DNA of 64,000 nt from positions 2,015,001 to 2,079,000 of the forward strand of contig OZ037769.1 of NCBI GenBank assembly GCA_964035545.1, read 5' to 3'. The stretch comes from Bugula neritina (Eukaryota > Bryozoa > Gymnolaemata > Cheilostomatida > Bugulidae). Positions 5,410 to 52,289 of this stretch are shown here, one piece after another. The notes below the pieces were generated by a model, which saw only the letters and a list, made by a program, of their open reading frames with translations, made no database searches and was not told the DNA's origin. How positions within the stretch are numbered: the first letter of the stretch is position 1; each line of letters begins with the position of its first letter. The position numbers and the translations under genes are program-made.

Positions 5410-8400
5410 CTATTTGACCTCACTGCTCAAACAATCTTGTGCCGTAAACAGCGAATAGGAAGTCGTTGAGCTTTGTTGCCGCGGTAACGGTTTTGGCTTA
5501 TCTGTTGTATTCGAAGTAGGCTCTGCTATACTTTGGTACTGACCAGATGCTAGTTGCTCTGTCGTAGGTATTGCATATATGTGTTCATTTCCCTTACTAG
5601 AGTCTGCAGTTAGAGAATTATCTGATGCACTCACACCGTTACTTTCACTGCTGGTCTTATCGCTATGCTTGGCACTTGTTAGAATGGTACTTAAACTTAA
5701 ACTGCTGTGCCCAGTGAATGCAAGATTCGTCTGCTCAACTTCTAAAACACTTCCAGGGCCCATGAGACGCTGGCTTGTAAGGAATTCACTCTTTTGTCTG
5801 AGGAAAGAAGTTTGATGAAGCTGTGCCGTTGGCGCTGGGTGTTGAGATGAGTTTTGCATCGCCGTTCTCGTAGGATAAATACTTTCTAAAATGTTATCAG
5901 GCGTTAAATTACAATACAGATGATGCTTTGATATTTGTTAAAAATAACTAAAGCAACATATATACTGATTATTAATTTACCTGGTTTTTCATACACTCCA
6001 CTGTGTGTATCAGAAAGAGTTGTGCTCTCCCTGGGCGAAGACTTATCTGAAAAAAATGTTTAAAAAACTGATAATATTTTAAACGCAATAAAAATTCAGA
6101 TTTTTGCCAATTACAGTAAATAAAACATTTGAAAGCAAAACAACTCAAAAACTCAAATTAAATAATATAGTTATGTTATGTAGTTATTGTCATGTGTTTG
6201 TAGACTATTATACCTGATGAGGAAAAAGGAACTTTTATGAATTTTTTAATTACTATGCTATTGACAAAAACCGAGGAAGGAAAAAATCAATATAATTAGA
6301 AATACAAAACTGTGGAACTAAACAAGAAATGCTTTACCTTTTTTGTCAGATTTCTTGAAATGATACACAAAAATTCCTGCCACTAAAATAACAAGGATTA
6401 CTCCAAGAACGATAGCGATTATTGTAGGAGTCTTCGTGGTTAAAGGTTCTGGCTCTTCATTTTTTGTTGTTGAACAGCGAGCTTGGCAATGTCCATGACA
6501 ATGAGTTGCATTTATTCCTTTCTCAACAGGGTCGTATGTATCGTATTGTTTCTTCTTGTAAAATACGGGTGGGTTCTTGTTTTCTAGAATATCGGCAGTG
6601 TCAAATTCATACGCCAAGACGTAGGTGAAATTTTGAGTTCCTTCCCTTCTTTGATGAGAAAATACTTGATACCCTGATTGCCCGTCAAAGTTATCATCAA
6701 ACGGCCAAATCATATCATCTGTTTGCTTTTGAGCTGCCGAGTCAGATATCGGTATGCTGACGTTACCAATAAATCTTTTTAGTTCTTGTGAAGTGGCCAG
6801 GGTCCTAGCATATAGAGTTGCACAGGTTTTGTAGAGTTTGTCTGGGCATGAATTAATGGCGTAATTAAGAAAACCATAGCCAAAGGCATAAATAGATTTG
6901 ATAGTGTACAAGGCGTAAATCTCAATGTTGAATGCTTCTTTGAATGGAGATGTTCCTTTACAAACTTTTCCCACATAACTAGAGTCAAAAGATCCTCGCA
7001 GCTTGCAGTGTTTTTCATTTTGGTACATTTGAGCAAACCATGGGTTACTGGTTGTAGGATTTGGCCTCAGTGATAACAAATACTCTTTAAATCCATCAGT
7101 CTACAAATCAATTTGACAAAACTCGGTGTTGTAAAATTATTTTGCAACAAAGTACATGATGACTTATAGCTTTTTACCGAACTTTTAACCTATTCTACAC
7201 ATATATAGGCTACTACAAAACTAGTTTTATTTTACATTGCTTAAATCTTATGTTTGTGAGTTTTTTACTGTTCAAAGGATTTAATAACTACTGCCTAACA
7301 TAATTAAACATCCGACTTGGGTTTTGGTGTATAGAAATTAGCTGGAAAACTCGATATAATAATTGTTAGTTACATACCTCAAAATTGGGAGTTATCTTAA
7401 ATGTCAAGGAGCCTCTGGTCAGGTGACCGTATTGTTGAAGTAAGGGTAGCCTGTCTTCCCACACTTCTGCCATCAAGAAAATGTTTCCACTCTCCTGCCA
7501 CCAGTTGCTGTGATCCGTATTACTAATTATATGGTCCAAGAAATTTTTTATTGCCTATAAAATTTATAAATATAGAATGCTAGTAGCATGATTACTATAA
7601 GTATTATGAGCAGTAGTACTAGTAGTATGAGTAGTACGGTGCATGAGTAGTATTAGTTATAGTATGAGTAGTATTAGTAGTACTATAGTAGTATGAGTAG
7701 TCCTATGAGTATGAGTGGTACTAGTAGCATGAGTAGTACTAGTAGTATTAATAGTATTAGTAGTACTGTGAGTAGTACTAGTTGTATGAGTAGTACTAGT
7801 AGTGTGAGTACTATGATGAGTAGTATAAAAAGTACGATAGTAGTATAGGCAGTACTATGAGTAGGTACTGCAATGCTTTTCACATTATTCAGTGAAAAAA
7901 AATCATGAGTGGCACTTGTATAAAACTAAAACTTTTGTGAAATGTCCTCCATCAATTTATGTCAGATTTTCATGAGTTCACATAATAATATGTTAAATAA
8001 AAAAAGATTTAAAAATAGTAATTAGTAACAGCGCTAATTGGTTAAACCAATAAAATGTTTCGTTTCAGTTACATAATTCATAATTGAAAAAGTTACGAAT
8101 TCTGCGATATATTTTGATTTACCTTTTCTTCTCCAATGTAGATAATGACTTGGCTATTATCATTGTGCTTCTTCAAACTGGAAATTATGTTTTCATATGT
8201 TGACGGATATTCCTCCAATCGATAATTGAGCTCGAACTCTTCCAACAGGCAGTAGTCGGACTGGTTGAGCTTCATTTTCATCAGCTGCAACAATAATATA
8301 TGAAATGCAATACTGATATATATAATCTTTTCAAAGGATAGTCTTGGAATAGTTTGAGTTATTGAAATGAAAAGACTCAATAACTCTGATGAGGAAAATA

Positions 8401-11400
8401 TTGAAATTAAATTATATATGAACTTTTCGAAATTAAATAAGTTAGCCCCACATAGCGCAATTAATAATAAAATTTTGTCCCTTTAAATCATAAAATGTAT
8501 ATTATATTGTTGACGCTATAAGGTATCCTACTTTATATGGAGTCAGTGAATTTAAACTCGCATAATTTAGAAATAAAATAGCTAGGTTAAGGAAACTATT
8601 TAGTCAAACATTTTTTGATTGAGTTTGCCTTTATCTAAATATTGAGTTGATAAATCAAGTTGCCTATATATGTATAAGATAATTTTATATTATATTACAT
8701 TTCATTATTATATTATATTAAATTATACTTAAATTATATTATTTCATAATATAATATTGCATTACATGTTGTTAAGTTATATCACTTAGTCTTGAAAGAA
8801 TCAAAGACCATATAGACCTTGTAAACTTCAACCCATCAAAACATAAAGCAACAGCTAAATTGATCTTTCTCACTGTATAATATTATATAGTCCAATCGCT
8901 TCCTATAAAATCAATTAGTTGTAATCTGAAAGAAACTCAAGCATATCCTTTGAAGTCCCACATGTTATTCAATGTTTTTAAAAACAAATATTATAGTGTT
9001 ATACTTTTATCCAGTTTCTGAGTATGAATATATAAGCATGCCTGCATTACTAACATTATATTTAAAAATGACTGGTTAGAATACTATAATCCACAAACCT
9101 CTGCCCCACTTTTACCATAAAGAGAGTTTGTGCTCAAAACGACAGCTGAATTGATAGCGTTGGCAGCATTCTGGTTTAAATCTTCCAGCACTTTGATGAG
9201 GTTGTTGGTTACTCTGGTAGCTGTGGGGTGAGTCCTGAGGAAGTGGGTGTGAATAGACTTGTCATCTAACTTCCAAGTAGAAGCCCCATATGCAACTTGT
9301 ATTAGGTTTGCTGGAATCATTAATGCTTGCTCCTACAAAATGAGTATATATGTATTCTAATAACTACCATATATTCTGTTTGTTTGTGTGTATGTGTTTG
9401 TGCATGTGTATGTGTTTGTGTGTGCAGGCGTACGTGCGAGTGTGGCGTACAAGAATCTATTCTACAGTACTCTTTCTAAATAATGTGCATACCGTGGTTG
9501 AAATATGACTGCTGTAGTCCCCTATCAGACCAACAATTTTGGATCTGTCCAGGCAATGCTCTTCATTACAGTATTCTGTTGTAAACTTTAAAACAAGTTC
9601 AGAATGTTAAATTTTTAATAAAGTTATATATAAGACAGCATACCGTAACAGATATGTGACTACTGTAATCTCCAATCAGTCCAATGATCTTTGACCGATC
9701 TAGACATTGCTCTTTGTTACAGTATTCTGTTGTACCATTCAGCACATCCGTGAGCAACTTCTGGGTAAGAGCTGTGTTGAAGCAGGTGTCCAGAATTAGC
9801 AAGCCAAATGTGAAGTTATCCTCCCTGAAAAGCTCGTTCAACCTTTCTCTAGCAAACAGAGCTGCTTCGGCTCTAAGAGAGGTCTCATTGTTGAAAGCTT
9901 CGCAACTCCACAAGTCTGGGTATTTGTTGAAACTAAAAACAACAGTAACAGTTACACAGAGCCGCTACATATAAGTAAGTAGTACATTTTGTAAACAAGG
10001 TTTTTGTTACTCATGTGCACAGTTGCTTATAAAACAGTGGCCGAGTGAGAATTTTTAATAGATTTTAAAAGCAAGTTTGATAATATAATTTTATAGAGTT
10101 ACTGGTTATAAATTTAATTATTCAAATAATTTTCTCTTCACGCTTGAAACAACCTCAAACCCAAATGTGTAAATGAAGTTCTGTGCAACTTTGATATAAA
10201 TAGTATTTTCATCAATATAACTTTTAGTTTGATTTTAATCATTAAAAAATATTTAAAATTTAATTTAAATTAAATGCAAAATACTGTGAAGGCAGCTCAT
10301 GACTGTAAGAAAAACTTTAAACTCAAGTACCAGAAATACTCTAAATGTAGAGATTGGTCAGCCTACAAGCGTTAGTCACACACTCAGACCTACCTGTCGT
10401 GTATCGGCATCGTAACAACAAGGATAAAGTCACCGTGCACGTAAGTAAAATTCTGGGGTTTTATCTGCTCTTTACATTTTTTTCTGCAGGCTTCATCGGT
10501 GCACCAGAACTGATTTGAGCCTTCTCTGCTATCAAAGTTCCATCCATCATCCACTGTAAACTCAGCTATCTAAAAGTTAACAAATAAAACCACTAATGAC
10601 TATAAGAATATTACTGTAGCCTAAATACTAAGTAAAAACCACACTGTTTCATCAATTAGAGTTAAATGCTTCCATAATGAGATTTGAAAAATGACTTACA
10701 ATCTCATTATTTGTAATTTGGTGATACGCTGGAGCTGACGTATCATTTATTTGTAGGGACTGGTCAGAGAATTTCAACCGTCTGCTGACATTCTGGTAGT
10801 GAGAGTCTGTCAAACTGTATGGGCTGTAGTCAAGCTCGATCTCTTGCAGTTCTTGATTTACTAGAGATGGCAGCTTTGCAACCCATGAGCTGTCACAAAG
10901 ATCAAACTGTTTAGAACAGTTTCGGTTTATTAGATTTTGAGCAGATGTGGCCAGGAGCTGTATGGCAATTGGCATTGCATCAGGGTGGTGGTGCTGTATA
11001 ATGTGAACAGAGTTTTTCTGTAGAGAAGAGTATTTGACAGGCTTTGACTCTGGAAGATGAGGAGAGACAATCCATTCTAGCGAATCAGATCTGTCATGAG
11101 TGAGGGTAGCTGTAAAAGGAAATAAAATGCTGCCCTGTGAGCAAAAATAGTGATAAAGCAGCCATGATAATTGCAAGACCAGCAAAATTTAGAAGAAATA
11201 GATATTATAATTTGTGCACGTGCGTGTATGGGTGGTTTAAATTAAACGCTGCAATTACATTTATAAATTGAGCCGTTTTACTTAATTTACAGTACGCATA
11301 GGAAATCTCCAGTTTTTAGCTATTTTTCACAACTTAGCTGCTAATGAACATTGCTTTTGCCCAAAATTAGTAAAATATCAATAAATACATCTAAATAGTT

Positions 11401-17400: not shown

Positions 17401-19298
17401 AACATTCGAGAACTTCTACTATAGTGCCTTATACACTTGGATTTAAACAGTTGGGTTACTGTCGAGCACCTGAAGCTATTTAGATTCGTCGAAAAATTAG
17501 TGCTCACCGAATTCCCACATTCCTCATGGCTTTGCTTATCATTAGCAATTATGACTGAGGTTGACCTAATTTCAGAAGCTGACAAAAAATCTGCTGAAAG
17601 TTCACTTTTACAGTCCAGGAAGAGCTGATTGTCACGTTTTAACACACTGCCGTATAGATGTGAGAATTTCATAAATTAACTTACAAGTTGTATATTTTTT
17701 AGCTTCACCAGGTTTACACCATGCAGAGCTATAATGAAACTAAAAAAATATCTGGTGATGGAATTGTACTTTAGACCTGCATTAGACAAACTATTTACAT
17801 CCAATAACAACTTCATATCCTTGTTTGTTATTCCATTTGAATACAGTATAAATAGAAAATTGTAGCAAGTGACACCCAAAGTGATTCATATCATAGTAGC
17901 GCAAGGTTTTAAATTTCCATACCATGCAGTTACAACATATAGCAGATATAACGGATATATAGTATGTCTGTTAATCATTCCCTCCTACAAAAAGAAACCT
18001 ATTGGCACATCCACAAGCAGAATTCATTAGTGACAGCAGTGAATAAATAATATCTGTAATAGTATAATGCAATCAATGTAGCAACTTAGACTATATATAG
18101 TATAGCAACACTACAAGCAAGATCAATTATTTTGTCTACCAATGGCGCTATCCATCATATAATACACTCAGAATGCTTACCAAAGCCCACAATAGAGCAA
18201 ACAACATTGCTAGCCTTTTCAGAGTCTAAAAATGTTATTTATTACGAATGTCCAAGTTTTGATCTTTAAAGCAGCCTAGCTATTATTATAAACTTAACGT
18301 TATAAATAGTTGAAGCGATGCATTAGCTAATCTCCTAATATGTGTCTTGAATTCTAGAAATTCAGGGCTCATCACGTGTCATGGGAATCTAATAAAAGCC
18401 GCTAGTTTGGTACTTAAGTTTTTACTATAAAACTAGAACATTGAAAGTGATTCAGACTTTGGAAATAGATAAACATGAATCACTAAAGTTGAAATCTGAG
18501 CTATAAGTTATTGCTAGACTCAATGATTATAGACTGCTAGCTTTTACTTTGAGGTAGGTGCAGTAATGGAGAAATTGAGAAAAGCCTGTGTTCTAGATTT
18601 GAAATGTAGCATAAGAAGTTATGTTCTCACGAGAATTTTAACCCACGCCCCAAACCAAAATTTAACTATAAAATTAAAGAACTTAGGCTTTCTCAATTTC
18701 TCCACTACTGCTCCTAAATGTTTACTTTTTGCTGCATAAAACTACATAAAATCTATAGAAAGATGTTAAAAAATTCAGAGGAAAAGCAAATTTTTATCAA
18801 ATGCATGATCTTGTAGACATATACCACTAAACTTATAATAATAGAACACACTCCTTACACCTAAATACTAATTGCAACTCCATCTGTTAAAAAACTTATT
18901 TCGGAGAAGTACAGGTTATTGCAACCAATTCTTATAACGAAAAATACTATTTCTTTTTCTAATTTTTACAACTTAGTTTTTCAAGTATAAGAAATATGTG
19001 TGGGATAAATCTCCAAACATCGATTGACACTACTTGGAAAAGCCACTAATGATGTTAAAGATTCAAAGAAACTGACGACTGTCGCAATTTGTAAAAGCAA
19101 TCAGGCTATTAGTCATAAATTAAGATAATGTGATATACTAAAGTATACTATAGAATATTTAGTTGTTTCAGCACAGATGTTCAACTCTACAGACTACATA
19201 CCTGGTGTAAGAGATCTTAAGCCACATGATTGGCTTTCAGAGAGCTTACAGAGTATAGCAAGAGAGTAGAGATATCCAAAACCAAGCAATGCCTTCAT
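5410..19298 (-). CDS. Dual Venus-flytrap single-pass receptor, copy 1 (most divergent)
   Basis: Fourteen exons join in phase: 19202-19298, 14502-14639, 13442-13576, 12432-12577, 11767-12001, 10700-11109, 10394-10569, 9644-9932, 9099-9332, 8123-8284, 7378-7554, 6338-7100, 5981-6046, 5410-5885, giving about 1167 residues. A signal peptide (MKALLGFGYLYSLAILCKLS) is followed by flytrap 1, with the ALKLNWDYTTVAYGS-like block also found in the other copies. Next come WC-x4-C-x3-C, flytrap 2 (GDFILVVTMPIHD; SNPWFAQMYQ as in metabotropic glutamate receptors), a C-x3-C-x3-C stalk, one membrane helix (TIIAIVLGVILVILVAGIFV) and a tail. Unlike copies 2-4, the tail is encoded by two exons, the last one long. 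It has YEKP and YAIP (YxxP) and PKPLPR. No seven-helix, kinase or cyclase domain follows before the stop. The ligand is unknown; an extracellular sensor role is inferred. Confidence 0.82.
7575..7865. repeat. Degenerate AGT/ACT-rich minisatellite
   Basis: About 290 bases are built from variants of GTAGTACTAGTAGTATGA. They lie in the copy 1 intron between its exons 10 and 11. The hydrophobic open frame seen on the minus strand here is a by-product of the repeat. Confidence 0.85.
9493..9585 (-). other. Partial second copy of exon 8 (31 codons, in frame) in receptor copy 1
   Basis: The minus strand reads FTTEYCNEEHCLDRSKIVGLI... to HISTT over 93 bases, bounded by an AG acceptor and a GT donor, with phase 0 at both ends. 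It repeats the 3' third of exon 8 (9644-9932) at about 70% base identity. Exon 8 also ends in phase 0, so including this exon would add 31 residues without a frameshift. The sequence immediately upstream of its acceptor matches the copy 4 intron, which suggests that recombination created the exon. It may be an optional cassette or a silent relic; RNA data would be needed to decide. Confidence 0.6.
11281..11680. repeat. Long fold-back element with ~195-bp arms
   Basis: The left arm (about 11281-11478) and right arm (about 11484-11680) are reverse complements along almost their whole length at high identity. Shared blocks include GCTGCTAATGAACATTGC, AAAATATCAATAAATACA and TAGTTAAGGTTCTTTTTAAT. 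There is nearly no loop, so the DNA or RNA could form a very long hairpin. It lies in the copy 1 intron between exons 5 and 6 and has no coding capacity. Confidence 0.9.
13085..13155 (-). repeat. tRNA-derived (SINE-like) sequence
   Basis: Read on the minus strand, the segment follows a tRNA plan: an A-box-like GTGTAATGGTTAGTATG, an anticodon arm with CTTACAAG, a B-box-like GTGATTCAATTCC, and a 3' GGGGGC. The anticodon loop differs by one base from the CTTGCAAG of the other copies. Stem mismatches argue for a repeat rather than a functional tRNA. It lies in intron 3 of copy 1. Confidence 0.6.
14817..14959. repeat. Short inverted-repeat element
   Basis: Arms at 14817-14840 (TTTCCATGACAACCATTACG) and 14937-14959 (whose reverse complement starts TTTCCATTATCATTATCCG) are imperfect inverted repeats around about 95 bp. 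This is consistent with a small MITE; the arms are diverged. Confidence 0.45.
18557..18714. repeat. MITE with GGTGCAGTA... terminal inverted repeats and TA target duplication
   Basis: Arms of about 38 bp at each end (GGTGCAGTAATGGAGAAATT and its near-complement) bound a 158-bp element. TA lies immediately outside both ends, as expected for Tc1/mariner-type insertion. The element has no coding capacity. A related end occurs at 3490-3527. Confidence 0.75.
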
Positions 19299-34200: not shown

Positions 34201-37200
34201 CATTTAACATGGAGCAAATAATTTTTGATCACTTTAATAATTAGCGCCTACCTTTTCTTCCCCAGAGTATATGATCACAAAACTATTCTTCTTTTGAGAC
34301 TGCAGAGTGGACCAAATAGAGTTGTACGTGTTGGTAGTTTCTTCTCCCAAATAACTTAGTTGAAAAGACTCAATTATGCAGTAGTTAGACTTGTTTAAAT
34401 GGCTTCTTACAAGCTGCAAAATGGTAAAAACCTCAAGTTCAACATTTTAAGTTTGAAAGAGATTTTGCTACGAAATAACTTTCAGGCAATATTGGCTTAC
34501 TGAATTTAGCTCCAGAATTTCAGATCTGCGAAAAATTAACTGTACTCAGTGCCGATCAATCAACACAAAGTAGCTATAATCACGGTTTCTAATCCACACA
34601 ATAAAAACTTTAAGTTTGCTATTTGTAGCTTTGCTACTATATATACAAAGCTTATAGCTATAAGTTTTGGGGAGCTTTAAATAAGTGTTTCTGTTTCTCA
34701 ACTACATACTGCTACAGTAACAGCAAATGGGCCAACCTCTGCTGTAGTCTCCCCATACAAAGAGTCTGTGTTCATCAGCACCACGGAATTTATATCAGTT
34801 CTCCCAGCGGAGTTCAGGTTGTTTAGTAATTTTATCAGATTTGCCGTAATTCTGGTTGTAGACGGATGAGTCCGCAGGAAGTGGGTGAACTCAGTCTTGT
34901 CATCCAGTTGCCATGTCGCCGCACCATAAGCTACTTGAATAATGTTAGCAGGAATCATCAGTCTCTGCTCCTGTAATTCAAGTTTAAAAACTTACAAGTA
35001 AAGGTCAAGCTTATAGTAAAACATAAACTTTTCCAATGTTGAAATATGTTTTATGTTAGCTTTATGGCAACCTGACTAGTTAAAAACTACAAAACACAAA
35101 AAAAATTATACAATAAACTTAGAGATAGCGCTTAAATTTCAGTAGAGCAATAATAAGTGAGACAGTTTACCGTAACAGATATGTGACTACTGTAATCTCC
35201 AACCAGTCCAATGATCTTTGACCGATCTAGACATTGCTCTTTGTTACAGTATTCTGTTGTACCATTTAGCACATCTGTGAGTAACTTCTGAGTAAGAGCT
35301 GTGTTGAAGCAGGTGTCAAGAATTAGCAGGCCTAAATTGAGACCTTTATCTTGAAAGAGTTCATTTAGTCGTGTCCTAGCAAACGTAGCAGCTTCAGCTC
35401 TCAGCGATGCTTCTGCGTTGAACTTCTGACAGCTCCATAAATCAGGATATTCATTGAAACTGCAAAGTATGAAGCCGTTGTTTTTCTAGTACCAATCTTG
35501 TTTGCCTTATGTAGGTCAAACCTAAATATTGCATAAAAGCAGTGTTTGTTTGCAAAAAAAATAAGATTTTCGTGATAAGTTTTATAAACTGAGGTTTTCC
35601 TTAAAACAGATTTCTTAAGATATTTAAACTTCTGCTCAATTATCCTAACCTACCTGTCATGAATAGGCATAGTGACAACTACAATAAAGTCTCCTGGCAG
35701 GTAGATGTAATCTGGTACAGGTAGTTGCTGACTACACTTTACTCGACAGCTCTCACTGGTACACCACATGTCTGTGTTCATCTCTGCCCTGGAGTCCACC
35801 ATAGACCAACCACTGGAAGGGATGTATGTCTCCTAACAAAAATGATATCAATTTTATTTTGAGGCATTTTTTTTAATATAATTCAATCCACTAGGGATCT
35901 TCTTTATAAGTTGGAAGTAATCAATTAATTGACTGTTCATTTTACCATTTACAAGATAATGCTTACAAATAGATCCATAACATTTAGATAAAAAATGAAA
36001 GACCTTCAGAACATCACCACCATAACAGATTCACAGGTCATTTTGTTAACACAAATTTAGAGATCAAGACAAAAAGTTCTAAATTCTAAATTTGTATTGA
36101 AGTATACATAAAAAATTTTACCCCTTCTGTTAGCTGGTAAAGTGGTATTTCTGGCTGTATTTGAAGAACATTTTTCATAAATCTGAGGCCGAAAGTTTCG
36201 TTATCATAATCTAAAGTTATGCTGATAGATTTCACTTTCTCATTGGTCAGCTTCTGTAACTTCTCAACTTTAAGGTTAGGGCAAACTCCTATTCTGCCTG
36301 AGCACTCACTATTCACCACTTCCTGTACGGAAGCAACCAATAAGCGCACTGCTGCTAAAGTTTGGAAGACGTTAGATCCAGCAGAGCTATTCAGCTGGTA
36401 CTGTTTTACAATGTGTATAGAGTCATGAGCACCAGCTAGAAACTCAAAGTCTTCTTTCTCTGGGAGTTCAGGAGAAACAATCTTAAAAAGACTGGAGCTA
36501 GTGGTATGAGTAGGGTTTACTAAAAGCAAAAGATAATAAAATTTCATTTTCGTTGTTTCAAGATCCAATCTGGTATAAAAAAGTTTGTGAAATTTTTTTC
36601 TATGGCATTTTTTGGTGGCATGAATAGAATTCACTAAAATATAGGCTAGCATTTATAAAAATTTGTTTTAAAAAATTATATCTTATATACTGATTGCAAA
36701 ATAATTTTTGTCACTATTCAGTGTTCTTTGGTCACAATATGTAAATGTTTCTCAAAAAACAGTCAGTCAAGTCAGTCAATAGAAAGTAAATAAGCAAAGT
36801 ATTCTTAACAACAAAATTTATATCACGTCACTGCGTTGTAAATTTTTCAGTATTACAAGTGATTTGCTGCTGCACACCATCTACTTCAGCTAAATTGCCA
36901 AGAACGTTATGAAAATATTATTACAACTTTCTGACCCTTTTTTTAACATTCTCTTCGTTGGCTTTTATGATTAAAACCTGACAAGGAAACATTTAGCAGA
37001 TGCTAAGACTGAAATATTTTACCACCAAAGAAATAACATTTGACTTGTTATTCATAAAAATGATTGATGTTGGCACAATTGTCTCTTAGGTTTTTAGCTC
37101 AAATTTCAACATTGCACCAGAAAAAAATGACAATACCTGTGGTAAATGATAATATTGTGGTTGTTTAACTCCTAGTATTACTAAAATTTCAACAGTAACA

Positions 37201-39939: not shown

Positions 39940-40906
39940 TTCTAAGTATGTCCTAATATCTTGGTAGTTACTGAACTATAATATAAAAGTTACTATCCAC
40001 TTTTTTACAAAGTTTTAACTTTTGATATACAGCTACTAGACATAAATAATTGCCTAAGTAGCTTAACTATATTTTAATCTTTATTAATGATTTAAAACCC
40101 ATCTGTAGTGTTGAGTTTACCCATGCAGTAGCCCCTTTAAATTTCAACAGGGAGGAGTGGGGAGCAAACTTTTATATGATTGATCATTTGTAGATAAAAC
40201 ATTATTTGGGCCATATAACTTAATTACAGTAGATATAGTTTAGCTTTTTATATAACCTTTGTAATGCACTCGTTTTATTAAAGGAATACCCTAATAAGCT
40301 CTTGTTATATTATAGAAACAATATTGTTTTGTGTGGCATGCAAGCATGCCTTTGTTTCTATTCATTTTCTTTTACTCACAGAATAATTTATTCACTGCTA
40401 GAAACTTGATTTAGAAATAATTACTTCAGTTACTTGAGATTACTAATGAAAATCAATCAAACTTTTCACTACTCATTGTCGCACTGGATATGCAAGTGAA
40501 ATGTTGCAGAAAGAAAGTGGTGCAAAATTTATATGCAGTGCAAGAGGGTTTATGTGCAAAAACATAGTTATTTAACATAAAAAACATATATTTTCATAAC
40601 AATAAATAAATTAAAAGCTATTCTCATCATGTGTGATATAAACAACCATTAACATGTTACACATATTATTATGATGCATGGCCATACTGGCATCATTTTA
40701 TAACAATTAGTCAGGTGGAAGAAACTTGTGTTGTTAAAAGAGCATTGTGTGCTCAAGTAAGCACAAAAATATTGTTTTAGTAATAATAAGCTAACCGCAT
40801 TATACTTTTTTATAATACAGAGATTGTCGTCTTAAATATACATAATATGAACAAAAAATGGAAAATATAAATATAATTTTTATAGAAATAAAATAAGGCT
40901 GCTTCT
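39940..40906. other. Intergenic region between receptor copies 4 and 3
   Basis: No exon was recognised. The high-identity block next to copy 3 (39940-40270) matches the copy 2 5' flank and presumably contains the promoter. The remainder is AT-rich and includes a short palindrome GGCATGCAAGCATGCC near 40337. Confidence 0.5.
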
Positions 40907-43900
40907 TCAACTTTCTTCATCAGATTCACCAACTGAAGGTTGTTGTTCATTGTTTACCGAGTCCTCTTTAGATGAGCGGAGAGTTGTTTTCCTTGGTATT
41001 GGTATGGGTTTTTCCTCACTAAGAGTACTCCAGTAGGGGTTATTTGGTATGATATATGTAGAGTTTACTGACAGAGGTCGCTCGTTGGATGGGGTGTTAA
41101 ACTCATCAACTGGGTTATTGGTGCTAATCGGGGTACCAGTTGTGACCTGCGTGGGATTGTGGTAGGAGCTTGAAGTTGTCTGGGAGAGACGGTGTGGTGG
41201 GAGAGGTGCAGGCATAGGAGGTAATTCTAAAAAATCAACAACTGCAATTTTTATTTTTCATTATGAAAGTAGAAAAAACACCAGATAATTTAAAAGACCT
41301 CTTAAAATTCTGCAGCCGTTATTTGTCTAGTAGACAGTAAAAGAAATTTTCCAACTGATAAAATTAGACATTTTCATGAAAAAAATGAAATTAAACAAAA
41401 TTCAGCGTCTTAAATTTTCAATTGCTTTGATAATAATGCTACCAACAAAATCATGTCATTCATTTCTTCTAGCAATCGGTTTATAGTTGAAAAGTAATTA
41501 TGAAGTTGATCTCTTCATAGATTGTTACAAATATCAAAGAAACTAAATGGAAGTTTTAGCTGACATCAGAAAATGACTCACCATCTGCAGGCTGTCTACC
41601 AAAATCTCTCATAGACAGGTTATCTCCCCTGTTTTCACCATAAGGTAGTGAATAGGTTCCCATATCTGTAAAATATAGCAGTTCATTTTTGGGTAAAAAA
41701 GGCCAATAGATAGTAAATGTTCAGTTTTATAACTTTATTATATATACGGTTAAATGCTGTCAGAAAGCAGTTGCACAAAGAGTAAATATAAAACATTTGA
41801 AATCTCACGGCTACAGAAATACCTACATGAATGACTGTATTGGCTTCCACTGGCAAGATAAACATGAGTTTCCTTTTCGGTATCTTTTGGCTTTTGACAT
41901 GGCATTCCTATTTAATAGAAATTGTAAAAAAAGTGAATAAGTTTCTTGACAAATAAACTACTTTATTTTTTGCATTTGATAGTTAATTTAGTGTAGTACA
42001 TGTCAGTTTTTCTTCTCTAGAAATTAGTAAAAATATTTTGCACTCATTCAAAAAATGAAAGTTTTGAGAGCATGAAACCTGTCTATTTTGTCAATTTTAT
42101 TAGCTAATAAATTCTCATAAGGTTATATTATATTAAGAATAAAACATTTAATTCTACTATACCTTTTTTTTTGACAGCTAGCAATATGACTGCAATGAGA
42201 AGAATTAGAATGACTATTCCTGAGCAAGTGGCAATAACAATGATCTGTTGGTTAGCTTTGCTTGGTGCAGCTGTACTGTCACTTTTCTCTTGACCAGGAC
42301 AGAAACTTGCACAATGAAGATCACATGACCTGCTTACTAAAACATCTTGTACAACCTCTGAAGAACCAGAGTCATCAGTTGTGTAGAAAACTGGTACGTC
42401 TGAGTCATTTGGTACAGAGATGTCATTGTTGGTATTAAACTCATAAACTAACACATAGCGATAGTTTGAAGTGCCTGGAATCAACTGTTGGGAGAAAACT
42501 TGGTAACCACTGTTGCCATCCAAATTTTCATCAAAAGGTAAGAGTCCCGCATCCCCACTCGTCTCGGAGCTAGAATCATTTTGAGGAATTCTTACTCTCC
42601 CAATATTATGTTTTAACTCTTGTGAAGAATACAATGTTCTATCAAGTAGCTTACTGCAAGTTTTAATACTTTGACCTTCACATTCACGATCAGCATAATT
42701 CATGAACCCGTATACTAAAGAGTAAATTGATTTTAGAGTAAAGAGAGCATAAATTTCAACATTAACTTCTGAACTTTCCATTGCATAGGATTCATTGGTG
42801 GGGCAAATGCTAGCTGTAGAGGAAGTGAAGGAACCTCGGACCTTGCAGCTTTTCACTGTTTCATACATGGTTGTAGTCCAAAGATTTGAGGCAAGGCCAC
42901 TAGGTCGTATGCCTAACAAATGATTTTGAAATCCGTTTACCTGAAATAAAACTTAAATGATTTGTCTGGAGAAATAAACACTCAAACGTAATCTAAGGGC
43001 TTATTATTTATACACAGTTAGCTAACACAATGTGTCCACCAGGCAATTTGCGGATGCTCATTTTGTATTTTAAGAGTTGTCATCACAACTAAATATTTTG
43101 ATTAAAACATATTAATCTAAATGTATGCTCACTTGAAATTCTGGCTTCAGCTTGAAGGTGAGGGATCCTCTTAAAATGTGCCCGTATCTCTCTAAAAGAG
43201 GTATTCGGTCCTCCCACACTTCTGTCATTATAAATATGCTGCCGCTTTCTTTCCACCAGTTTTCGTTTACAAACTTCATATTATCTAAGAGGTCTCTGAT
43301 TGGCTAAAAAAAAGTTAATGTTGCTAGAACCAATGCAGTTTCTAAAAAAACAGTTTTTACGCATATCTAAATCCGCTATGCTGAAGCACAACAGCAATTT
43401 ATGATGTGAAAAAATTGATGAAAGAACTATTTTAGTTGAGTAATTTAATATTTTTTAAAATCACATCATCTTATGAAATTTAGTTTGATATTGTATTGAG
43501 GACTATTTATTTTAAAAATAACTTGTGCACCGAAAACATTTACAAAGATTAGCTTGTATTTTTATAAGTTCTTGAAAATACACCTAATATTTCAAAACTT
43601 ACAATACATAATAAACTGTAGCATGTGCTTTACATAGCATGGAGCATCTAAGTTGTATCACTTTTAAATAGTATCATACCTTCTCTTCCCCAGAGTATAT
43701 GATGACAAAACTTCTTTCACTGTAAGACTGTAGAGTGGACCAAATAGAATCATATGTGCTGGTAGTTTCCTCTCCCAAAAAACTTAGTTGAAAGGACTCA
43801 ATGATGCAGTAGTTAGACTTGTTTAAATGACTTCTTACAAGCTACAAAATAGTGAACAGTTATATGGAATACTATGCTTCTTACAGCACAGGTTTACACT

Positions 43901-46900
43901 CATGCTGAGAGCCACGTATTCATGCAACCACATAACTGTGTAAACAGATAACCATGTAACCGGGTAACCGTGAAACCATTTAACCATGTATCTATAATTC
44001 AACTATGCAACCGTTTAGCCATATAAAAGGTAACCATGTAACCACGTGTCTATGCAACCATGCAACCATGTAGCCATGCAACAATGTAACCATAACATCG
44101 TGTGACCATATAACCATATAACCGTGTAACCATGACACCACTTGACCATTTATCAATGCAACCATAGTATAACTTAGACGATATTTTGTCATATGCTGTT
44201 TGACCATAGCATCTCCAAAGTATATTCAAAATATTTCTATGGGTGTTTGCCAAGATCAGTTTAAAAGCAGTGTATTAATATATTACATAGACGCAAATTA
44301 TATCTGTAAATAAGTAAATATTAAGATATTCAAAGAACCAACCTCTGCCGTTGTCTCCCCATACAAAGAGTCTGTGTTCATCAACACCACAGAATTTATA
44401 TCAGTTTTCCCAGCGGAGTTCAGGTTGTTTAGTAATTTTATAAGGTTTGCCGTAATTCTGGTTGCAGACGGATGAGTCCGCAGGAAGTGGGTGAACTCAG
44501 TCTTGTCGTCCAGTTGCCATGTCGACGCACCATAAGCTACTTGAATAATGTTAGCAGGAATCATCAGCCTCTGTTCCTGTTATTATAGCATGAAACTTAC
44601 TCAATACTTTACTGAAGGTAAGTTCAATTCCCATGACTTTCAAACAATTTCTAGCAAAAACAAATTAAATATCTAAAAGCATTAAGATATTTTTGATATT
44701 TTCCAGGATGATTTGAAAGATTTCTGTTAGCAGTTATTTTGAAAACTATAAGATCGCAACGAAAAAGTATTTTAGACTTTTTCATATAGTTTTGCGTTTC
44801 ACTCCAACTTCTTTACCAGTATTAAAATACATTATTTCATAAAATTGTTTCTAGTTATTTAAATGCCATCTACCATAACCAATAAAAAGTTGGTTATTTG
44901 TGTGTAAGATTTGATACACTAAATAGGACTCATAGCTTTTCAGACCATTGTTCAGAAAAATGTATATTCTCTCAAAAGTAAGTTTAGATTATAGACATGG
45001 AAATTGAATTCTAAAATTGGAAGGACAGAAAGATAAACTTTAAAATAAGTTGAGAATGTTAAATTTTTAATAAAGTTATATATAAGACAGCATACCGTAA
45101 CAGATATGTGACTACTGTAATCTCCAACCAGTCCAATGATCTTTGACCGATCTAGACATTGCTCTTCATTACAGTATTCTGTTGTACCATTTAGCACATC
45201 TGTGAGCAACTTCTGAGTAAGAGCTGTGTTGAAACAGGTGTCCAGAATTAGCAGGCCTAAATTGAGACCTTTATCTTGAAAGAGTTGATTTAGTCGTGTC
45301 CTAGCAAACGTAGCAGCTTCAGCTCTCAGCGATGCTTCTGCGTTAAACTTCTGACAGCTCCATAAATCAGGATATTCATTGAAACTAAAAAATAATGCTG
45401 TTGGTAATTCTTAATTTTTAAAAAAGTTTATTTTTTAAACTGAAAGGTCAAATCTGAGCCTAAACTGTGAGAAATATTAATTACACCAGAAATTTTGTAA
45501 ACTTTAGGAGATCCCTGTATACTTTTACTCGCAAAAAGTAAATTTTTTTAAGCGATTATGTAATATTAGGAAAGAATTACATTTTATTTGTGTATTATCA
45601 TGTCTATTAAAAGATCATGTGTGCATATAATTAAATAATAACATGCCTATATTCCTATAAAAAATCTTCTTAGATATAACCTGCTTGGATTTTATTAGAA
45701 GGATGCCTTATTATGATTTTACTCACTACTTATAGTCAATTATCAAAACCTACCTGTCATGAACAGGCATAGTGACAACTATAATAAAGTCTCCTGGCAG
45801 GTAGATGTAATCTGGTACAGGTAGCTGCTGACTACACTTCACTCGACAGCTCTCACTGGTACACCACATGTCTGTGTTCATCTCTGCCACGGAGTCCACC
45901 ATAGACCAACCACTGGCAGAGCTGTATGTCTCCTAACAAATAATTTATAATGCAATTAGCAATATATTATTGTGCTGGGAATAATATAATATTATTTTTT
46001 ATGTGACAGGATAGTCTCAGTTTTTCTATAGAACTTTTCAAATCAACCACTTACATTCATGCAAAGCTGCAAAAACAATTACTTCCAATTAAACAAATTT
46101 TAACAACCGGATGTTTTTTTAACGGGATATTATAAACACCAGCAGTTTTTATTATGGCTTGCAAAAATAAAATTTTTAAATTCTTACATCTTCTTTCAGT
46201 TGAAAAAGTGGTGCTTTTGGCTCGATCTGAAGAAAGTTTTTCACGAATTTGGTTGTACTGGTTGTATTCGCATAATCTAAAGTTACGCTGATAGATGTCA
46301 CTTTCTCATTGGTCAGCTTCTGTAACTCCTCAACTTCAAGGTTAGGACAAACTGCTATTCTGCCTGAGCACTCACTATTCACCACTTCCTGTACGGAAGC
46401 AGCCAATAAGCGCACTGCTGCCAAAGTTTGGAAGACGTTAGATTCAGCAGAGCTATTTAGCTGGTACTGTTTCACGATGTGTATAGAGTCATGAGCACCA
46501 GCAAGGAACTCAAAGTCTTCTCTCTCTGGGAGTTCAGGGGAGACAATCCAAGAAAGACTGGAGCTAGTGGAATGAATAGGGTTTACTATAAACAAGAAAA
46601 AAGAACACAATGATTATATTCATATTTCCATTATTTTAAGAACTAATGTGGTATCGAAAAAAGCTATAATGTAGCTTTTAACTTTCATCGTAAATAATGA
46701 TTAAAAATTTAGTAAAGATTAACAGTTATAATTTTTTTTATAAATGCAGTATAGTTGTATTTAGAGGGTGGATAGTACAAGGGTGTGTACTGTGTAAGAG
46801 GTGGATAGTACGCAAGGGTGTGTAAGGGGTGGATAGTGCAAGGGTGTGTAAGGTGTAGATTGTTTAACCAGCTTTTAAGCAGTATATATAGCTCCAGTTT

Positions 46901-47888
46901 GTGTGGAATGAACACGCAACACATTTAGGTTACTTTGCATGTTTGTCAAAAATAACAAATTAATTGAAGTTAATTTAAAGTTTGAACTACAAATAAAAGT
47001 TGGAAAAATATGAAATAATAAATATCATTTGATTATCTTACTAATGTTTTATGTTCAAATTAAAATTTAATCTTAAAGTTCTTTAACGTATAACGCTAAA
47101 AACAAATGCATTAACATATTTTTAGACATGTGATGCACAAAAGTTAAAGTAAATTATTTACACTTATTAGGTGTTGACAGAATTATAACTCCCCGAGGTT
47201 TATCCGACCCTGTCACATTACGTATGAGTTGAGAGGCAGTGGCATCTTGGGGGAACTCAATGTAGCTGTCTACACACACCCTCTTCTCTCTGAGTTCAAC
47301 TTCTAGCAGCTGTCTCAGAGCTCTACCGGAAGTTGTGGAGCCATACGCCACTGTTGTATAGTCCCAGTTCAATTTGACTGCTAACTCTGCTATCACCTAG
47401 CCACACATAGTATACATTATAGTGTTATTGTAGATGCTGCAACCTCTCATTATAAAAGCTGCATTACTACTGAAAGATTATATATTTGCAAGAGTAATCA
47501 AAATGATAATTTTCAACTCTTTTCTGGATGCTTTTATTTCTACTTATAGTTTCAGGCTTGACACTATAATAGCTGCACACTTTTAGCATCAGTTTCTAAG
47601 AAATATTTTAAACTCGAGATTTTTCAATCAATATTCTTTGCAACAAGAACTATAATATAAAGTAGTCAGCTCACCTGAGCTCTCCATCTTAAAGGACTGC
47701 TGGCATAGAATAAATTATTATCATAAGTTATAGAGTCTGGTATTTCCTCAAAGCTAATGTAAGGAATATCTGTGGATCTCAGTAGCTGCTGGACATTCGA
47801 CAAGCCTACACTGTCTATAACACCTGACAAACAAACAGCATAACTTTAGAATTAACTAATTAGTATATCTATTAAGCTTTGCAAAGCA

Positions 47889-47935
<47 letters not shown>

Positions 47936-50900
47936 TTTTGTTTTTTTTCAAGTAATATTATTGCAATTGAGAAAACATTCAGGCTCCAACACAGTTTAAA
48001 TTTGGAAGCGACTAAATTACTTTATTAACCAACCAATGAGAATACATATTGCGTTAATATAACCAACCAATGAGAATGCTGTCCGCAGACGACACAGTGT
48101 TTTTAACTCCCCCACATGATTCTGTTAGTAAAACTTGATTAGAGATCTCTGTGTTCACTCTGATCATAGACTTGGAGTCACTCCTACAGACTGACAGTAC
48201 TTGTACTCCTAAGGAAATATAATAATAATAATATAGTGTGAGCAAGTAATATTAGTAATTTGAATTAAGGTTGTATTGAACTGTACTGAAAAGTATAACT
48301 ATTACAGTTTTTTTTTGTTAGACCACAAAGATTTGAAATTGTTTGTCTCTGCGGCTTCTCCTATACATTTGAGTCACACAATAATACTGTAATATAATAA
48401 TATACAAAGCTAATAATTATACAAAATATTTATCATATATGCATTTTATTTGGTACCTATATACACACATATCACCAGTTTAAGAATTATCAGCATTTTA
48501 GCTTCATGCGAAAGTTGATCAGTTGAAACATATGCATTTCATTTAACTCAACTTAAATTTGATGACAGAAAAATAGAGAAACCCATTTCCAATAACCAAT
48601 AAAACTATAATTATTTGTAGTTAAAATTGCTCACCAAAATTCAAAGATTGTTCGCTGTTGATATTATTCAAGGTTTCCTTGACTTTCTGTACTTTGGCTG
48701 ATGCCAGTCCATTTTGATTGGCTAAACAGTCAGCGTCTTCTCCACTAATAAATATTATGTGGAAGTCTGAATCTAAAAACGTAGTGAAATGTTCCAGTAC
48801 ATATACAAACAATGAAGCAATAGCATTTAGAACTCCAAGTCTAAAATAACATTCTAAAAACAGATAAATGTATTGGCAATGCAGGACTAAAATATTAGTG
48901 CTTGTAAGTTTTTTTCTGCTTTTTAAAGAACAAATATATCATGTAACTGGACAATAGCATTACATAAATGTTTTTGAGTTAAAAAATAATCCTTACTCAG
49001 TAGGATAAAACAATACCTAATTTACTATAAGCTTATATACTGGAGTTATCAAATGTATAAACATAATGTTATGATGTAGTATTATTAATTTTTTTACTAC
49101 ATGTCACATAACATTTTGTGACACACAGTTTTAAATCAGAACATTATGTGACCTACTTGAATAGTGACAATCTCGTAGGTATTATTAAATCAAAGTATAA
49201 ACCAATGTATTTCATGCCTTTATATATAGACTTGCTCCAAATTAATCGGTTTGTAGAGTTTAATAACCTTCCTTTTTATATAGAAAAGCTGGCGTTAACT
49301 TTTTATATAAGTAAAACAAGTGATACAATTTATGCTCATATTGTCCTTTAATGCTGAATAAACAATTTTGCAAAAACTTTCCATTCAACTACCGTAAAAT
49401 GGGGTAACTTTAGCCACTTGGGGTAACTTTGGCCACTTTGGAAAAAATGTTTAAAATGTAGCTGGTGCTATATCTATGAAGTCTAAAAATATTTTAATTG
49501 TATATATGCACTGACTGCAGATTGGTGCATCCTATTCCTGAAAAATAATTGATATACTTATTTGCTGCTTCTTGCTGTCAGCCATTTTCAATTTCCTGTT
49601 TGACAACAAGATTTTCAGCGCTGTCCAACTTTAATCTATTTGAAGGCATTAGAAAAGCTGGACTCATTTTCTTTTTTGTATTAAAGAACTTTGGTAAGTA
49701 TTTAACCAGGATATTTGTAATTTAAGTAAATAAATTGAAATCCAAAATTAAAATATGTGTCTTGAATTCACTGTGTACAATTTTTGACGAATTTGGGGTA
49801 ACTTTGGCCATGACTAAATGGTACTCCAAAGTAGGTTTCTGGCAGCGCTGCGAATTTTCTGTTACTTCAGACACATAGTACATTACTCTCTAAAGGCACA
49901 ATCATTTGATTCACCTATACCCAATTTTTTAGTTATATATTTGAAACAACTTAGAGTCCGAAATATGAAATAATTACATGGGGAATTATGCATTTTTGTT
50001 CCCAGACAGCAATTTTGGGTTTAATGTTTTTTTTTATATAAGAATTTGACCATGCATTGTAAAATGTATTTTTCAAGACAATTATACTCAGAAAATATTA
50101 AAGAAAAGTAACATCTCCAAGATATGGTATATCTGAGGAGATTATTGGTTTTGCTTTATTCACAAGAATTGGCAGCTGGAAAGTCTTGACAAGAAGTGGC
50201 TAGAAATATGATATTACCAAAGGAACACTACAAAACAGAGCCGCATGAAGACACAAGCTGAAGCCTGGACGCCAAACTGTGTTATCACAAGTAGAGGAGG
50301 TAGCCATTGTTGACCATACCTACTACAAAGCTGGCTCAATGGGGCTCTCCGTTAGATAAAACAGACTTTCGAATAATAGTCAAGACCTATTTTGACAAAT
50401 GTGAGAGAAGAGTGCAACATTTCAAAAGCAACTACCCTCAAAATCACTGGAGTCTCAGTTTTATGTCAAGACATAAAGATAGCTTGTCTCACAGGTTGTG
50501 CCAAAACATAGCACCGGAATGGGCAACAGTTAATTCTGAAGACATTACGCATTATTTAAAAAATCTACAGACAACTGCTGCAGCCTATAGTTTGAAAGGG
50601 CATACTTGAATTTAAGATTAAATTCAATGGAATTTGAACTTGTACAGTGATTTATTCAATGTTGCAAGCAAAATACCTGATTTTTTATATATATACAAAA
50701 GTTTTTACACTTAATAACAATGTACCTCGAATAGCTGTGGTTTCAATGCAATAATTACACTATTATAGCTTGCATTTTGTCTAAAATAATTTTTTTTTGT
50801 AGTAATGAAGTTGAATAATGTTGTTCTTTAATTTCTAACTGGCTAAAAAAGCTCCAAGTGCTGCTAACTTTAGCTACATGGAGAATAACGACACCGGCCA

Positions 50901-52289
50901 AAGTTACCCCAAAAATAGGGTAACTTTGGCCACCTACTTTTTTTAATACCACAGGAGATCTAGCAGTCCCAAATTGCAAATGGTTCTTTCATTTAGTGCA
51001 TATGCTGATAAGCTTCATTTAGCATCCAAAAATTTTAAAGAATATTGTAATTCTTTCATATGACACCCAAAATATGTCTCAAAACGGCCAATGTTACCCC
51101 ATTTTACGGTAGTTATAGTATTAATATTAGTGTTTTAAACACATTGTAGCACATTGAATGGTTCAAATATTTGGATTGAGTACAAACTATAGAACTTACA
51201 TTAATAATCCTAATGAAGAATGTAGTCAAGTGGAACCAATAAACAGATTCCTGCTAGGCATATAGTTCAGCTTAAGCAGTGACTAAACATTGCGACATAA
51301 CAGGAAGCTTTCAAGCACTGCATAGCACAGATTTTAGTAAAAAACAGGGAAAAATCCCTTCCCCTTTAGCACTAAACAAGACATATATCCTAAGTGTGTA
51401 TTTCCAATCAAATATATTACTTCTCTGAATAATAAGCACTTAAAAAGCCACAGAATATGAGCATTTTTTATAGATTAGTATAATTAGTGAAATTGCTGCA
51501 ATCTAAATGTCAACAAAGGATGAGTCTCAAAACATGATCAACCCCCTCCCCCCTTCTCTCACTATATTGAAGATTATATAATTCATTATGTAATGTATTA
51601 ACATCAAAGTGGTGGTTGTATAAATTTGCAGACTAAAATGCACTAAAAAGCTGTAGCGTCAAACTGCTACTTAATTATACATACTTCAAGATGACTAATT
51701 TGATTTTCATGCACTTTTGTACAACAGACAAACTATATTATATAACTTTAAAGCACATATAAGGTCACAAAACCATTTGTGTAAACAATTTTGATAGGAT
51801 TTTCTTAAATTAATTTTTTAAGTTATTTGAACACAATGTGATAAATAAATTTAAATTGAACATCTGCCATGCCTTCACTACAGAAGTAACTATAGTATAG
51901 AAATTAAGGTATACCTGCCGTAACTCTGGACTCTCTAATAACAATGTTTACTTGTTATAATATTTTAGTAACGTACTACATCCCATAATGCATTTCCTCA
52001 CTGTTATGAGATGCAGTATGCAATATCTGAAATTATGAGCTTCACATTACAACCTACAAGTTCCAGGAGTTGAAATCTGAGTGAAGCAATAAATTGATAA
52101 CTAAGAAGCAGAATTTAGCTTATCTTACAAATAGCTTTAATATACACCTCAAGAGCTAAATTAGTGATAGCTAGCTTATCTCTTACCATTTGAAGTTGAT
52201 TGTTTCAAACACGTTTGAGCCCCGACTAAATGTAACACGCATAATCCAAGGACAGTGTAGAGTAAAACTTGCGTTATAAGTTTCTCCAT
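40907..52289 (-). CDS. Dual Venus-flytrap single-pass receptor, copy 4
   Basis: Fifteen exons join in phase: 52187-52289, 48635-48772, 48068-48208, 47675-47823, 47162-47396, 46188-46585, 45754-45932, 45096-45384, 44343-44576, 43680-43841, 43133-43303, 42163-42940, 41827-41907, 41582-41665, 40907-41226, giving 1153 residues. Signal peptide about 1-24. Flytrap 1 about 36-405. C412/C417/C421 linker. Flytrap 2 about 435-925, from GDFIIVVTMPVHD to NYRYVLVYEFN. C939/C943/C947 stalk. Membrane helix about 966-988. Tail 989-1153. The flytrap 2 end has the order expected of class C receptors: WW...EVWEDR, SNLWTTTMYE, an alanine/tyrosine helix, then FDENLDG-SGYQV. The tail carries VYLAS, TYSLPY, PLPPHR, TYIIPNN and PIPIPRK. 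Intron 1 (3.4 kb) hosts a pogo-like transposon. The domains are seen in sequence; adaptor-mediated signalling is inferred. Confidence 0.87.
43905..44160. repeat. Degenerate AACCATGTAACCGTG minisatellite
   Basis: Roughly 250 bases are built from 8-9-base variants of ACCATGTA/ACCGTGTA. They lie in the copy 4 intron between its exons 9 and 10. The overlapping open frames rich in HGYMV repeats are artefacts of the repeat. The matching introns of copies 2 and 3 lack it. Confidence 0.85.
46763..46862. repeat. Three-unit GT/GA-rich minisatellite
   Basis: Three units of about 30 bases, each containing GGTGGATAGT and AAGGGTGTGTA, lie in intron 5 of copy 4. They are absent from the paralogous introns. 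Confidence 0.8.
47891..47928. repeat. (TA)n microsatellite
   Basis: About 38 bases of uninterrupted TA dinucleotide lie in the intron of copy 4 between exons 3 and 4. Confidence 0.95.
48027..48077 (-). repeat. Duplicated exon 3 splice-donor segment in receptor copy 4
   Basis: The segment AACCAACCAATGAGAAT, which spans the exon 3/intron boundary on the minus strand, occurs twice, 34 bases apart (48027-48043 and 48061-48077). Both copies offer the same ATTCTCATTG/GTTGGT donor. The upstream donor keeps the frame and agrees with copies 2 and 3. Use of the downstream one would add 34 bases and shift the frame. Confidence 0.75.
49392..51109 (+). mobile_element. Pogo-like (Tc1/mariner superfamily) DNA transposon, internally decayed
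   Basis: The element is 1718 bp with terminal inverted repeats CCGTAAAATGGGGTAAC at the left and the exact complement at the right. TA flanks both ends as target duplication. The motif GGGGTAACTTTGGCCA recurs near both ends (about 49421, 49795, and in both orientations at 50897-50937) and may be a transposase-binding subterminal repeat. The interior holds only a fragment of a CENP-B/pogo-type DNA-binding region (50200-50609) and no DDE catalytic domain, so the element cannot move on its own. It sits in intron 1 of receptor copy 4. Confidence 0.88.
50200..50609 (+). pseudogene. Remnant of pogo-type transposase, DNA-binding region only
   Basis: Two frames together give a pogo/jerky-like N-terminal half. 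The first reads DITKGTLQNRAA (a psq-type helix-turn-helix end), then PGRQTVLSQVEEVAIV, and stops. After a shift near 50310-50350 the second frame (50307-50609) continues GSPLDKTDFRIIVKTY through NYPQNHWSLSFMSRH to NSEDITHYLKNL. That pattern of a fixed-spacing W and FxxRH is typical of the CENP-B DNA-binding half of pogo/Tigger transposases. An in-frame stop at the GCATGA position, the frameshift and the missing DDE domain make it non-functional. Confidence 0.75.

Follow-up and report, generated by a model that had tools for sequence, protein, structure and literature searches.

Venus flytrap (VFT) modules occur in several receptor systems, among them the class C G-protein-coupled receptors (GPCRs) with the metabotropic glutamate receptors (mGluRs). 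The genes described here lie in a stretch of 64,000 nucleotides from the bryozoan Bugula neritina (contig OZ037769.1, positions 2,015,001 to 2,079,000; hereafter the window, in whose coordinates features are given), where four head-to-tail genes on the minus strand, D, C, B and A, fill positions 5410-52289. Each gene encodes a signal peptide, a diverged first flytrap (VFT1), an mGluR-like second flytrap (VFT2), one transmembrane helix and a tail of 137-186 residues. The homology of VFT2 to the ligand-binding domain of mGluRs covers most of the module and includes its cysteines; VFT1 is related to that domain more weakly. Unlike class C receptors, the bryozoan proteins have two flytraps, one helix and a tail with a putative SH3 ligand, and have neither an NCD3G domain nor seven helices.

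Natriuretic peptide receptors and receptor guanylyl cyclases differ in their kinase-homology and guanylyl cyclase domains, neither of which was found by Pfam in D or A. BvgS and EvgS, bacterial histidine kinases with another class of flytrap, offer a further comparison. BvgS is described as carrying tandem periplasmic flytraps on one membrane protein (PMC4352136, PMC5573083). The truncated mGluR of Schistosoma mansoni, SmGBP, is likewise spiralian and membrane-associated, with an mGluR-type flytrap and no heptahelical part, but it has one flytrap and, in the available passages of its description, is without the cysteine-rich linker and the transmembrane and intracellular parts (PMC3206071). 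Venus kinase receptors also place a flytrap on a single-pass invertebrate protein, but are described as joining one flytrap to a tyrosine kinase (PMC4026697, PMC3703292), and no kinase match was obtained in D or A.

In architecture, the proteins can be likened to the receptor-type adenylate cyclases of Trypanosoma, a large family of protist proteins described as having two N-terminal flytraps, one transmembrane helix and a cytosolic cyclase domain (PMC6027212); a cyclase catalytic domain is absent from D and A according to Pfam. An earlier reading made from the sequence alone (the sequence-only reading) had stated that no family with two flytraps in series on a single-pass protein with an adaptor-type tail was known. 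This has to be narrowed, as the trypanosome cyclases combine two flytraps with a single helix, and it stands insofar as those proteins carry a catalytic domain. Among the open-licence papers listed by our literature searches, none describes an animal family with this architecture.

Four adjacent genes encode two flytraps in series

Exon peptides were obtained by comparing open frames among the copies, and splice signals and phases served to fix the limits of the exons. The peptides are collinear among D, C, B and A, with identities from about 28% (A versus the rest) to about 96% (within B, C and D). All internal splice sites of the final models are GT-AG and the phases are equal at each shared exon, so the claim of four adjacent genes with agreeing splice sites and phases is borne out, with proteins of 1127-1167 residues. 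Position 5410 is the last base of the gene A stop codon and 52289 the A of the gene D ATG. The stops of D, C and B are followed by the next gene after 967, 2057 and 1259 bp, respectively. Exon 1 and the tail exons of gene A had no match in the copy-versus-copy exon comparison and were located by other means. Exon 1 of A and a small tail exon between exons 12 and 13, found in D, C and B and not in A, were added with the help of two draft-genome proteins.

These two B. neritina proteins cover opposite ends of the gene: P0003 joins exons 1-5 and part of exon 6 of a relative of gene A, and P0001 runs from the last part of exon 12 to exon 15 in a relative of gene D. P0001 was recovered with the VFT2 alignment, together with a lungfish V2R (P0002), and P0003 with the junction query; the search with full-length proteins returned nothing at E<=0.001 among 7995 candidates. 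Their origin in the draft B. neritina genome annotation is deduced from their names, and we therefore treat them as independent gene models, not as transcript proof. The draft annotation is described as made by AUGUSTUS with transcriptome hints (PMC7576161). P0001 and P0003 differ from genes D and A at about 4-25% of residues per exon, which could reflect cryptic species, paralogy or fast evolution.

A whole-protein Pfam scan was run on D and A, with models that predate the small exon of D and exon 1 of A. ANF_receptor matched in two stretches of both (D, 104 bits; A, 77.8 bits; cut-off 25.4), and this hidden Markov model check agrees with the proposal of two flytraps per gene. VFT2 matched mGluR5 with E 3.2e-23 (phmmer, gene D) and 2.8e-36 (five-member profile). 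VFT1 is a short, diverged flytrap relative: that of D scored 40.1 bits to ANF_receptor by itself, 4 of 5 family VFT1 sequences matched at E<=1, and the profile found mGluR3 (6.5e-8 for the whole sequence, 9.9e-6 for the best stretch).

In D, C and B, hydropathy revealed one transmembrane segment apart from the signal peptide; for A, whose signal exon was added later, it also gave one. Gene B has one extra marginal hydrophobic stretch, within VFT1. Both the last part of VFT2 and the helix are encoded in one frame by exon 12. The Pfam scan of D and A found no seven-helix (7tm_3), NCD3G, kinase or cyclase domain, in line with a single pass without seven helices, as first suggested; for NCD3G the genome offers a weak control, with 1 match genome-wide. 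In the genome searched (215,847,546 bases in 295 contigs), none of the 15 matches to 7tm_3 at E<=0.001 lies in or beside a family locus. Five non-family ANF loci have 7tm_3 within 15 kb, 4 of them exceeding the curated cut-off, and several further non-family ANF loci are likewise without a nearby 7tm_3. A hidden seven-helix, kinase or cyclase exon after the membrane helix was considered and rejected, given the small intergenic room (967-2057 bp after D, C and B) and the lack of a Pfam match in D or A.

The two flytraps meet within exon 7. In one uninterrupted frame, this exon completes VFT1, encodes a three-cysteine linker (WCT-x2-x-C-(K/R)-x2-C) and opens VFT2 with its first strand, and it links both flytraps in all nine members read, namely D, C, B, A and five members from elsewhere in the genome (P1, P2, S1, Q and one on contig C2; see below). 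Its phases are identical in the first eight; in the C2 member it is recognisable by C-x3-C-x3-C and the same donor phase. Of two fragments, P3 has no match to exons 3-7, and in S2 exon 7 matches in two separate pieces. Hydropathy of the window genes showed no hydrophobic leader ahead of VFT2. The placing of two flytraps in series in one gene thus holds in 9/9 members read.

A three-cysteine pattern, C-x(3-6)-C-x3-C, chosen after inspection of the proteins, occurs exactly twice per protein, once after each flytrap, in 8/8 modelled members (D, C, B, A, P1, P2, S1 and Q). Since there is one copy per flytrap, this suggests a repeat unit made of flytrap plus stalk. The distant C2 member has the linker copy as well. 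In VFT2, all 8 cysteine positions examined are kept in 8/8 members, including the one aligned with the mGluR intersubunit cysteine, C129 of mGluR5; residue numbers and roles are those of mGluRs and were placed by eye on the alignments. The equivalents of R78, S165 and Y236 are likewise kept in 8/8. No amino-acid clamp was recognisable in VFT1 in the mGluR3 profile alignment.

The predicted cytoplasmic tail carries a conserved PxPxPR motif

The tail after the helix comprises 164 residues in D, 161 in C, 137 in B and 186 in A, and in these four a PxPxPR motif begins 11-33 residues from the C-terminus. The motif is intact in eight of the nine members examined (D, C, B, A, Q, P1, P2 and the C2 member), for the last four in the tail or downstream open reading frames (ORFs); the tail ORF of the C2 member contains VPIPAPRAATP. 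It was found in 5/5 tails (D, C, B, A and Q) versus 0.1-2.1% of shuffled tails (5000 trials each), and no copy lies on the reverse strand of any of the five stretches checked (P1, P2, S1, Q and C2). The tails evolve fast while PxPxPR persists. The adaptor-type tail postulated earlier is in this way supported at the sequence level. Because a signal peptide is combined with a single helix, the PxPxPR stretch would lie on the cytosolic side.

YxxP sites, possible SH2 ligands, are present in the tails of D, C, B and A, and none is present in the tested stretch of Q. The tail ORFs of P1, P2 and S1 also share a second conserved stretch, YTKIEPLKEY in P2 and S1 and YTKIGPL in P1. In ELM, PxpxPR is listed as a ligand of the SH3 domains of CIN85 and CD2AP, and these are described as adaptors in receptor regulation, endocytosis, actin organisation and receptor clustering (PMC8728146).

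Further family members and selective constraint

The genome search located further members beside the four window genes, consistent with the lineage expansion that the sequence-only reading had proposed. Contig C5 carries members P1 and P2 with fragment P3 (1.52-1.55 Mb) and member Q (5.376-5.40 Mb), contig C4 carries member S1 with fragment S2 (10.94-10.96 Mb), and contig C2 has three sets of matches (15.67-15.70 Mb), one of which was read in part (exons 5, 7, 8, 9, 11 and 12). P1, P2, S1 and Q keep an open frame and the phases of the window genes throughout exons 2-12 and are 34-41% identical to those genes; P3 and S2 look like fragments. The segments C4:10932001-10970000 and C5:1512001-1562000 form a segmental duplication, with introns and flanks that partly align and 89% residue identity between P2 and S1. 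The stretch C2:15693001-15706000 (L054, L055) represents a third, distant branch with junction exon, helix and tail ORF.

Ratios of nonsynonymous to synonymous substitution rates (dN/dS) for the D/C/B pairs were 0.26-0.30 in VFT1, 0.20-0.24 in VFT2 and 0.42-0.51 in the helix. The junction exon gave 0.90 for D-C (59 codons, synonymous divergence (dS) 0.057), 0.16 for D-B and 0.29 for C-B, the tail 0.26-0.89, where two of the three pairs have a dS of 1.3-3.0, and the signal peptide 1.89 for C-B (32 codons); for D-A, saturation precluded an estimate. An array of pseudogenes is rejected on dN/dS for the four window genes, and on the open frames alone for P1, P2, S1 and Q.

Exon 8 of gene A is 82% identical in residues to that of D, versus 14-67% for the other A exons compared. 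In the surrounding stretch (9932-9481, covering exon 8 and intron 8), the match to D extends over 363 bp at 84%, and intron 8 of A holds a second partial copy of the 3' part of exon 8 (97 bp, 76%). The stretch resembles a gene-conversion or insertion tract.

Proposed mode of action and alternatives

We propose that the genes encode a bryozoan-expanded family of single-pass receptors that may have arisen from class C (mGluR-type) ectodomains and would act as dimers through SH3 adaptors, a reading to which we give an even chance. VFT2 would form a disulfide-linked dimer as in mGluRs and act as the principal binding module. Its ligand would be small, amino-acid-like or otherwise, and probably not glutamate bound in the canonical way. 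VFT1 would play an accessory part, in recognition or in dimerisation. When ligand closes the flytraps, stalks and helices would move, so that the tails become exposed or clustered. PxPxPR could then recruit putative CIN85/CD2AP-type SH3 adaptors in place of G-protein coupling, and these could connect the receptors to Cbl, endocytosis, actin and signalling clusters. More tentatively, and with somewhat less confidence than in the reading as a whole, the family may constitute a separate class of animal receptor, in which flytrap and three-cysteine stalk are repeated on a single helix and small-ligand binding by two serial flytraps leads directly to recruitment of CIN85/CD2AP-type adaptors without G proteins, kinase or cyclase. 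What is new here, judged from sequence, is the three-cysteine stalk after each flytrap (8/8) and the PxPxPR motif near the end of the tail or tail-like ORF (8/9). Class C flytraps, usually linked to G proteins, would have been rebuilt in one lineage into proteins with two flytraps, a single pass and a linear-motif tail. The family offers a testable case in which a receptor may switch its signalling mode yet retain its sensor. Little is known of receptors in this colonial phylum, for which the family is a candidate for chemosensation or recognition.

Several observations weigh against the proposed adaptor-coupled family. The exon joins, 6-7-8 among them, are predicted from genomic gene models, and exons 7 and 8 of Q are about 15 kb apart. 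Together with the fact that each draft protein covers just one end, this could point to two genes per unit, with VFT1 and VFT2 made from separate transcripts; we regard this as very improbable because exon 7 bridges the junction in one frame in all members read, and additionally no leader precedes VFT2 and the phases are compatible. No exon 1 was recovered in any of P1, P2, S1, Q and the C2 member; for P1, P2, Q and the C2 member, tail exons are placed as ORFs with incomplete splice models, and in the C2 member the second three-cysteine stalk was not seen in the exon 12 frame. The motif is degenerate in S1 (PVPTPH), and the forward strand of the 13 kb after fragment P3 contains no PxPxPR. A profile comparison of VFT1 with VFT2 was not significant (E 0.15). 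The sole structure model, of the VFT1 relative P0003 (alignment of 10 of 20 exon rows), is poor, with a predicted local distance difference test score of 41.2 and confidence only at about residues 163-248. Foldseek returned 1704 matches at E<=10 for this model, 11 of them at E<=0.001, and the best 50 of the 1704 are all class C GPCRs. These matches back lobe II only. Finally, the glutamate pocket of VFT2 is altered: the D208 position is A, T, F or V and K409 is Y in 8/8 members, D318 is E in 7/8 and K in Q, and the T188 position is S in six and A in two (C and B). Canonical glutamate binding by VFT2 is unlikely given these losses; a small carboxylate or amino-acid-like ligand is possible.

Other functions can be imagined for the same proteins. 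They could be clearance or scavenger receptors, like natriuretic peptide receptor C, with flytraps that capture ligand and a tail that internalises it without a signal of its own. The lack of an enzyme or seven-helix domain and the link of PxPxPR to endocytic adaptors (PMC8728146) are consistent with this, but tails of 137-186 residues would exceed the need of internalisation alone, and the YxxP sites of D, C, B and A, though missing from the Q stretch, hint at phosphotyrosine signalling; we consider it unlikely. We find it less probable still that they serve this colonial animal in allorecognition or immunity and owe their diversity to tandem duplication and gene conversion. The tandem window array, the segmental copies on C5 and C4, the three match sets on C2, the conversion-like tract in exon 8 of gene A and the per-exon divergence of the relatives in the other B. 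neritina assembly would all fit, but the flytraps, with dN/dS of 0.20-0.30, give no sign of diversifying selection. A similarly low probability is assigned to co-receptors or decoys that pair via VFT2 with true class C GPCRs and modulate them: the intersubunit cysteine is kept and at least 5 genomic loci have ANF and 7tm_3 matches side by side, but the adaptor motif conserved in the tails implies that they have their own output.

Features of the window

Table 1. Coordinates of the four genes and their main features, in positions of the window.
Feature	Position	Strand	Details
Gene D	52289-40907	-	15 exons, 1153 aa
D exon 1	52187..52289	-	signal peptide
D exons 2-6	46188..48772	-	VFT1
D exon 7	45754..45932	-	junction in a single ORF: VFT1 end, C-x4-C-x3-C linker, VFT2 start
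D exons 8-12	42163..45384	-	VFT2 (mGluR5-like) and transmembrane helix
D transmembrane helix	42173..42244	-	within exon 12
D tail exons	40907..41907	-	41907-41827 (small exon), 41665-41582, 41226-40907
D PxPxPR motif	40991..41008	-	PIPIPR
Gene C	39939-31203	-	15 exons, 1151 aa
C exon 7	35654..35832	-	VFT1-VFT2 junction
C transmembrane helix	32906..32977	-	
C PxPxPR motif	31287..31304	-	PVPAPR
Gene B	29145-20558	-	15 exons, 1127 aa
B exon 7	24710..24888	-	VFT1-VFT2 junction
B transmembrane helix	22012..22083	-	
B PxPxPR motif	20576..20593	-	PVPMPR
Gene A	19298-5410	-	14 exons, 1167 aa; most diverged of the four copies
A exon 1	19202..19298	-	signal peptide; located via P0003
A exon 7	10394..10569	-	VFT1-VFT2 junction
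A transmembrane helix	6357..6422	-	
A PxPxPR motif	5479..5496	-	PKPLPR

Outside the array, an ORF at 61552-61980, with no Pfam match at E<=0.01, adjoins a minus-strand ORF at 61203-61526 that has a weak discoidin-type match (F5_F8_type_C_2, E 0.0054, below the cut-off).

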